DNA from: Nitrospirota bacterium
GTDB taxonomy: Bacteria; Nitrospirota; Thermodesulfovibrionia; Thermodesulfovibrionales; UBA6898
Direction: 5' to 3'
DNA length: 43,406 nucleotides
Assembly (NCBI GenBank): GCA_012026685.1
Contig: VEOY01000058.1
Coordinates: forward strand, 1-43,406
The translations under genes and the position numbers were made by a program. The notes beneath the pieces are model-generated. The model made no database searches. It was not told the origin of the DNA and worked only from the letters and a program-made list of their open reading frames with translations. Below are positions 1 through 904 of this stretch, piece after piece (the stretch's first letter is position 1; the number at the start of each line of letters is the position of its first letter).

Positions 1-393
1 AGGTTTACTTGCCGCATTGCCGGGGAATGTTCCGGCGTTTATCTCAATAATGTTGGAGAAGGTATCGTTATCCGAGTCCTGCGACTCGATATTTTTAAAA
101 TTATGGCCTGCATTTGCATATGCGGAACCATAGGCATTCCGCGATCCTCCCGAGGGACCATGGCAGACAGTGCATAGATTACCCGGCTGTCCTGATACTA
201 TAGAGAGGCTGCTCAAAGGAGAGGAAGGATAGGTCGATTTGAATGAAGTGGCATAGCTTGGGACCGCATGGGACATCCCTGATGACGCGACGACCATCAC
301 AAGAGCTATGCAGAAAGCGAACATCAATCTTATACCCGGATGATCAAGGGACAACTTCCTGCTGATCACACTTTTTTCATAGATTCTTTTCAT
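1..393 (-). CDS. c-type cytochrome-like secreted protein, 3' end truncated by the window edge
   Basis: Not in the ORF track because it runs off the window. Minus-strand translation from ATG at 393: MKRIYEKSVISRKLSLDHPGIRLMFAFCIALVMVVASSGMSHAVPSYATSFKSTYPSSPLSSLSIVSGQPGNLCTVCHGPSGGSRNAYGSAYANAGHNFKNIESQDSDNDTFSNIIEINAGTFPGNAASKP; contains CxxCH (CTVCH, approx. 160-174), an N-terminal hydrophobic segment, and SD AAGGAGGT at 397-404. Confidence 0.8.
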   Translation of the reverse strand, partial: MKRIYEKSVISRKLSLDHPGIRLMFAFCIALVMVVASSGMSHAVPSYATSFKSTYPSSPLSSLSIVSGQPGNLCTVCHGPSGGSRNAYGSAYANAGHNFKNIESQDSDNDTFSNIIEINAGTFPGNAASKP

Positions 394-518
394 GTTACCT
401 CCTTACGGTTCGATGATTTCTTACACTGATGATTAGAATTTGGCGAGCGCTCTTGGAACTTTCTGCATTCGCCTGTTCGAAGCTTGTTCCCACATAAAAT
501 TCCTGGTATTTCCGACAT

Positions 519-554
519 AAAAAAAGCCTGTTCCCCGGCAATGAGAAACAGGCT
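519..554 (-). terminator. intrinsic terminator, expression platform of the upstream riboswitch
   Basis: Minus strand AGCCTGTT-TCTCATTGCCGGGG-AACAGGCT followed by a T run (519-525 on + is A-rich). Confidence 0.8.
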
Positions 555-574
555 GTCATTATTGTCGACCAGCA

Positions 575-660
575 TGCTTCTTCGGCAGCCCGGCTGTCCC
601 CTCCAGGACCCGATGGCTTTGTGCCCCCTGATCTCTCAGGGTTTACCTTTTTCGGAAACA
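575..660 (-). ncRNA. GEMM-I (cyclic di-GMP-I class) riboswitch aptamer
   Basis: Minus strand GAAAAAGGTAAACC-CTGA-GAGA-TCAG-GGGGCACAAAGCCATCGGGTCCTGGAGGGGACAGCCGGGCTGCCGAAG: GGYAAACC motif, stem capped by GNRA loop GAGA, CAAAGCC core, and the GCCGGG..GCCGA 3' element. Confidence 0.88.
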
Positions 661-904
661 ACTTTCATCCATGCACAATTTCAAATAGCAGCATTACAAC
701 TATTTGTAAGATACAAGACGTAAGAAACAATGTCAAATTAAGTTAAGTTAACACTATAAAAATTATTTAATTTAGGGAATAGGGTGGTAGCTGAGGCCTT
801 TTTCCCGATATCTCAGGTCATCATATTGAACATTAATTAAGAGGAAAACGCCTCAAGTTGATTATAATAAGACCTCGATTTCTTCAAGACAGGAAGGGCA
901 GACG

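Follow-up and report, generated by a model that had tools for sequence, protein, structure and literature searches.

The leader and the gene at the contig end

The window (the whole stretch of 43,406 nucleotides analysed here) carries a complete riboswitch leader on its minus strand, extending from about position 736 to 391 and ending at the start of a gene for a CxxCH-containing secreted protein. In the direction of transcription, the leader comprises a promoter-like site, a GEMM-I aptamer, a terminator and about 125 nt of untranslated RNA with the ribosome-binding site AAGGAGG (398–404, minus strand, assigned from the sequence), followed by the ATG at 393–391. The putative promoter TTGACA-17-TATCTT (708–736, minus strand) has 10/12 matches, and TTAACTTAATTTGACA is largely conserved in the aligned leaders of relatives; the count of promoter-like sites in the region is no higher than in shuffles. 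The signature elements of the aptamer are GGTAAACC at 647–640, a GAGA-capped stem, CAAAGCC and GCCGGGCTGCCGAAG, and AGCCTGTT...AACAGGCT with seven T residues forms the terminator (554–519, minus strand). The fold of the full leader is better than those of 200 of 200 dinucleotide shuffles (z −3.8). An 88-aa ORF at 395–661 overlies the riboswitch and was dismissed as a non-coding frame.

The initial annotation had described a GEMM-I riboswitch with a terminator about 125 nt before the ATG of a CxxCH gene, and all the elements that it named are present on the minus strand. The riboswitch–terminator unit stands, but the antiterminator and the polarity were missing from that reading, and the P1 pairs 659–655/580–576 carry the switch beyond a plain aptamer on both its 5′ and its 3′ side.

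The coding sequence (1–393, minus strand) is open at window base 1, where contig C12 of the assembly ends. The truncated product of 131 aa contains an N-terminal hydrophobic segment (by inspection), one CxxCH (codons 174–160) and a DxDxD motif; an AlphaFold model of this fragment, made with a two-row alignment, had a pLDDT of 42 and was not used. The CxxCH motif of this exported protein, as expected of a c-type cytochrome, is invariant in 25/25 homologs, and three complete riboswitch-linked orthologs of 433–465 aa contain one CxxCH each. Some homologs possess further CxxCH motifs, and one of these is fused to true cytochrome c domains. The CxxCH of the orthologs lies in a domain with resemblance to Temptin_C and to the NCBIfam diheme GEGP protein, the family matches being partial and below cut-off (NF041762 diheme_GEGP, E 9.6e-13; Temptin_C). 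The genome holds about 600 CxxCH-coding matches versus 115 in a reversed control, as well as cytochrome c assembly genes. The invariance of the motif, the homolog with cytochrome c domains, the roughly 600 matches and the assembly genes make a heme c protein plausible, and the product of the regulated gene is probably a heme c-binding protein that is exported. The cytochrome of the initial annotation is thus plausible, but the riboswitch-linked orthologs have one heme motif each, no evidence connects them with extracellular electron transfer, and a link of the riboswitch gene to this process is speculation.

The aptamer and its ligand pocket

The Rfam scan of the whole window gave one match, RF03167 (c-di-GMP-I-GGC), at 656–580 on the minus strand with 65.6 bits (E 1.9e-13), above the gathering score of 59. 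The RF01051 model (c-di-GMP-I) also scored the aptamer above its cut-off (62.7 bits versus 35). The covariance-model check on the minus strand, proposed with the initial annotation, was therefore positive with both models, and the GEMM-I class assignment is borne out. In 57 aptamers, 93.4% of cells pair and two-sided changes occur in 21 of the 24 pairs, although these pair counts lean towards the structure because the alignment was fitted to the same structure. The covariation score was reached by none of 500 shuffles, and slid-structure controls gave 0.06–0.13 versus 0.58. The P1 5′ strand GUUUCCG (653–659, minus strand; the P strand) pairs with 584–576, and the outer P1 pairs covary across the 57 aptamers. 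The minus strand carries a real GEMM-I aptamer at 659–576.

A covariance model was built from the source genome and its relatives, and 120 aptamers were aligned with it. This alignment places the pocket bases of the window aptamer at 647 (G20), 620 (A47) and 585 (C92), with the U22–A45 and G21–C46 pairs intact. The G that had been aligned to G20 in the initial annotation, and taken there to favour c-di-GMP over cGAMP, is confirmed at 647, in place of the A that marks GEMM-Ib cGAMP aptamers at this position. In a Geobacter cGAMP aptamer, the A20G substitution changes the ligand to c-di-GMP (PMC6456294). Because of the G at position 20, c-di-GMP rather than cGAMP is the predicted ligand, and the window riboswitch very probably senses c-di-GMP.

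The label of the highest-scoring model needs some care. The "GGC" in the name of RF03167 appears to denote G20/G47/C92, which we infer from the G at position 47 of the model consensus. The window has A at this position, and therefore a plain c-di-GMP-I pocket is a better description than GGC. It is very unlikely that the aptamer senses 3′,3′-cGAMP, as GEMM-Ib aptamers do, or a further variant ligand of the Rfam "GGC" class. The best Rfam model is indeed c-di-GMP-I-GGC, and the same genome contains a GacA-like Hypr GGDEF protein and four A20 aptamers, but the window combines G20 with A47, the consensus G47 is absent, and A47 occurs in 120/120 aligned aptamers. Like the window aptamer, eight other A47 copies in the genome carry the c-di-GMP-I-GGC label despite the G47 of the model. 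A sub-family label of Rfam can evidently suggest a pocket variant that is absent from the sequence, which is a labelling pitfall.

Terminator, antiterminator and the predicted polarity

The strong intrinsic terminator AGCCUGUUUCUC-AUUGCC-GGGGAACAGGCU with its U-tract occupies 519–554 (minus strand); its hairpin (554–525) has 12 pairs and −18.1 kcal/mol, and none of 5000 permutations gave an arm pairing as good. It is separate from the aptamer (distance +29), and both can coexist. The P1 3′ strand AGAAGCAUGCUGGUC is complementary both to GUUUC of the P1 5′ strand and to GACAGCCUGUUUC of the terminator 5′ arm. The A strand CGAAGAAGCAUGCUGGUC (567–584, minus strand) can take as its partner either the P strand, in the aptamer, or, from 581 on, the T strand GACAGCCUGUUUCU (544–557, minus strand; the terminator 5′ arm), in an antiterminator. 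The A/T duplex has −14.7 kcal/mol in the window, where 4 of 500 shuffled arms reach this value, and −12.3 to −17.3 kcal/mol in related leaders. This OFF-type platform is common to 18 leaders of the source and related genomes, in which the arm is conserved. For 16 distinct leaders, the pairing of each flank with its own arm was reached by 4 of 5000 permutations in a test that ignores the relatedness of the leaders, and the distal antiterminator helix covaries (GCUG/CAGC, GCUA/UAGC, GCUU/AAGC, GCUC/GGGC). The analysis shows the aptamer with its pocket bases, the terminator, and two complementarities that exclude one another and are conserved.

For a window transcript that ends ahead of the terminator 3′ arm, folding without ligand gives the antiterminator pairs a probability of 1.00. 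With the aptamer forced, the terminator arm is set free, and the full leader folds into the terminator. In the truncated-transcript ensembles, the antiterminator probability is low in 4 of 19 leaders, though the duplex exists. The full unliganded leader prefers the terminator fold by about 5 kcal/mol (−63.8 versus −58.5 kcal/mol), and read-through must therefore rest on kinetics. Cd1 of C. difficile is a tested OFF switch with the strand order P-A-T-H, and its read-through is likewise reported as kinetically controlled (PMC9262584). As in Cd1, the window has a separate terminator, the 5′ arm of which pairs alternatively with the P1 3′ strand, and since the P-A-T-H order is the same, binding of c-di-GMP should cause termination.

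At low c-di-GMP, the P1 3′ strand (581–567) would pair with the terminator 5′ arm (557–544) once the arm is transcribed, and this antiterminator would let transcription continue into the CxxCH gene. When c-di-GMP is high, P1 (659–653 with 584–576) would be locked by the ligand, leaving the terminator arm free; the 554–525 hairpin would then form and transcription would stop. It is likely that this c-di-GMP-I (GEMM-I) riboswitch is a transcriptional OFF switch of the CxxCH gene, a prediction for which we infer the ligand, the affinity and the kinetic outcome of the switch.

The opposite polarity is unlikely. Most Geobacter GEMM-I switches act as ON switches, as would five copies in the same genome (L001 and L008–L011, on contigs C180, C160, C149, with two copies, and C9), in which the aptamer 3′ strand is the terminator 5′ arm. 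In the unconstrained MFE of the window, the aptamer 3′ strand also forms an alternative hairpin with GCAUGCUGGU. However, the window terminator lies apart from the aptamer and can coexist with it, and the alternative hairpin, rejected here for lack of conservation, is not kept in orthologous leaders, whereas the OFF-type antiterminator is. It is hardly credible that the predicted OFF switch is a degenerate or non-functional remnant. Its A strand reads GAAGC instead of GAAAC, which makes a wobble in either pairing, and the contig ends within the downstream gene. Both pairings nevertheless survive through the wobble, and relatives conserve the pocket bases, the terminator, the promoter and the linkage to the gene.

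The window switch is a c-di-GMP-I riboswitch of a known kind, most likely of OFF type. It shares with Cd1 the c-di-GMP GEMM-I aptamer, the P-A-T-H order, the competition of P[AT] with [PA][TH] and, by prediction, the polarity (PMC9262584). Cd1 controls flagellar genes in a Firmicute, whereas the window switch lies before the gene of a CxxCH secreted protein and differs in its P1 extension, GUUUC/GAA(A,G)C. The Geobacter GEMM-Ib cGAMP riboswitches (pilM, Gs1761, Gm0970) have the same aptamer fold and similarly occur in a cytochrome-rich genome, where they precede cytochrome and pilus genes, but they have A20 and are ON switches, whereas the window has G20 and is predicted to be OFF. Repression of a probable heme protein by c-di-GMP at the level of transcription, as predicted here, would be the reverse of the Geobacter cGAMP switches, which activate cytochrome genes.

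Related switches and a candidate cGAMP synthase

A GEMM-I aptamer precedes such a CxxCH gene, directly or by adjacency, in five genomes, namely the source genome (G000), G004, G005, G007 and G010. G004, G005 and G007 are of the same genus, and the G004 aptamer is partly lost at an assembly gap. In G010 the linkage is by adjacency, two aptamers in tandem leading into a near-identical gene where a contig ends. This locus (L099, G010:C388:336-765) shows two complete OFF-type riboswitches in series before the CxxCH gene, each with its own terminator. Most other homologs of the CxxCH domain have no detectable upstream aptamer in the available sequence, the linked G010 copy not being among the loci surveyed. 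In relatives, the OFF platform is also followed by genes for CxxCH/acidic-repeat proteins, beta-helix-like secreted proteins and a sigma-70-family factor. The sigma-70-family gene was seen behind an OFF-type platform at two loci, L122 (G013:C109) and L044 (G014:C1), with the family match run on L122 only.

The source genome contains 13 aptamers over the RF01051 cut-off, plus two weaker ones. Among the five copies with the ON layout are switches ahead of the genes for a PilZ-like protein and a response regulator. Four aptamers (L002, L003, L006 and L012, on contigs C90, C45, C21 and C149) have A20, the cGAMP-type base, and the genes behind them encode a PhnD-like binding protein and secreted proteins. 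Among the 120 aptamers, a script assigned the ON layout to 36 with G20 and to 0/18 with A20.

The genome also encodes a GGDEF protein (G000:C205:47097-48494; L172, L188) with Ser in GHLVGS together with GGDEF. In the PDB it matches 6d9m best, with 169.6 bits versus 109 for the next entry; from its construct description, we take 6d9m to be the GacA domain of Geobacter metallireducens. The combination of Ser and GGDEF is the Hypr signature (PMC6456294), and it is kept in 28/28 readable sequences of this protein and its orthologs. It seems that this GacA-like protein is a candidate cGAMP synthase. The GacA-like Hypr GGDEF protein is conserved through much of the order, and a small-GTPase-like gene follows it in the source genome.

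The interesting context of the window switch is its genome, which seems to hold switches of two polarities and probably for two signals. It may be, with the balance even, that a single RNA fold serves one cyclic-dinucleotide regulon here, in which c-di-GMP ON, c-di-GMP OFF and cGAMP-type A20 switches coexist with the genome's own GacA-like cGAMP synthase. An assignment of targets, for which belief and doubt weigh the same, would place PilZ-like, response-regulator and secreted-protein genes under the ON switches, and CxxCH and other secreted proteins under the OFF switches. If the regulon reading is true, rising c-di-GMP would swap sets of surface and redox proteins, and cGAMP would be read separately. 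With their opposite outputs and two types of pocket, the near-identical aptamers of the genome form a natural set on which the evolution of polarity and ligand choice could be tested within one regulon. The Desulfobacca acetoxidans cluster (PMC9481103) likewise has c-di-GMP-type and c-AMP-GMP-type GEMM-I aptamers in one genome, but those are predicted to be ON and are joined with AdoCbl riboswitches, whereas here OFF, ON and A20 types lie at separate loci.

The second gene after one of the A20 aptamers (L002, on G000:C90) encodes a protein of 959 aa with a single CxxCH. The same contig has an open frame of 960 aa that contains a GGDEF domain and is probably the same protein.
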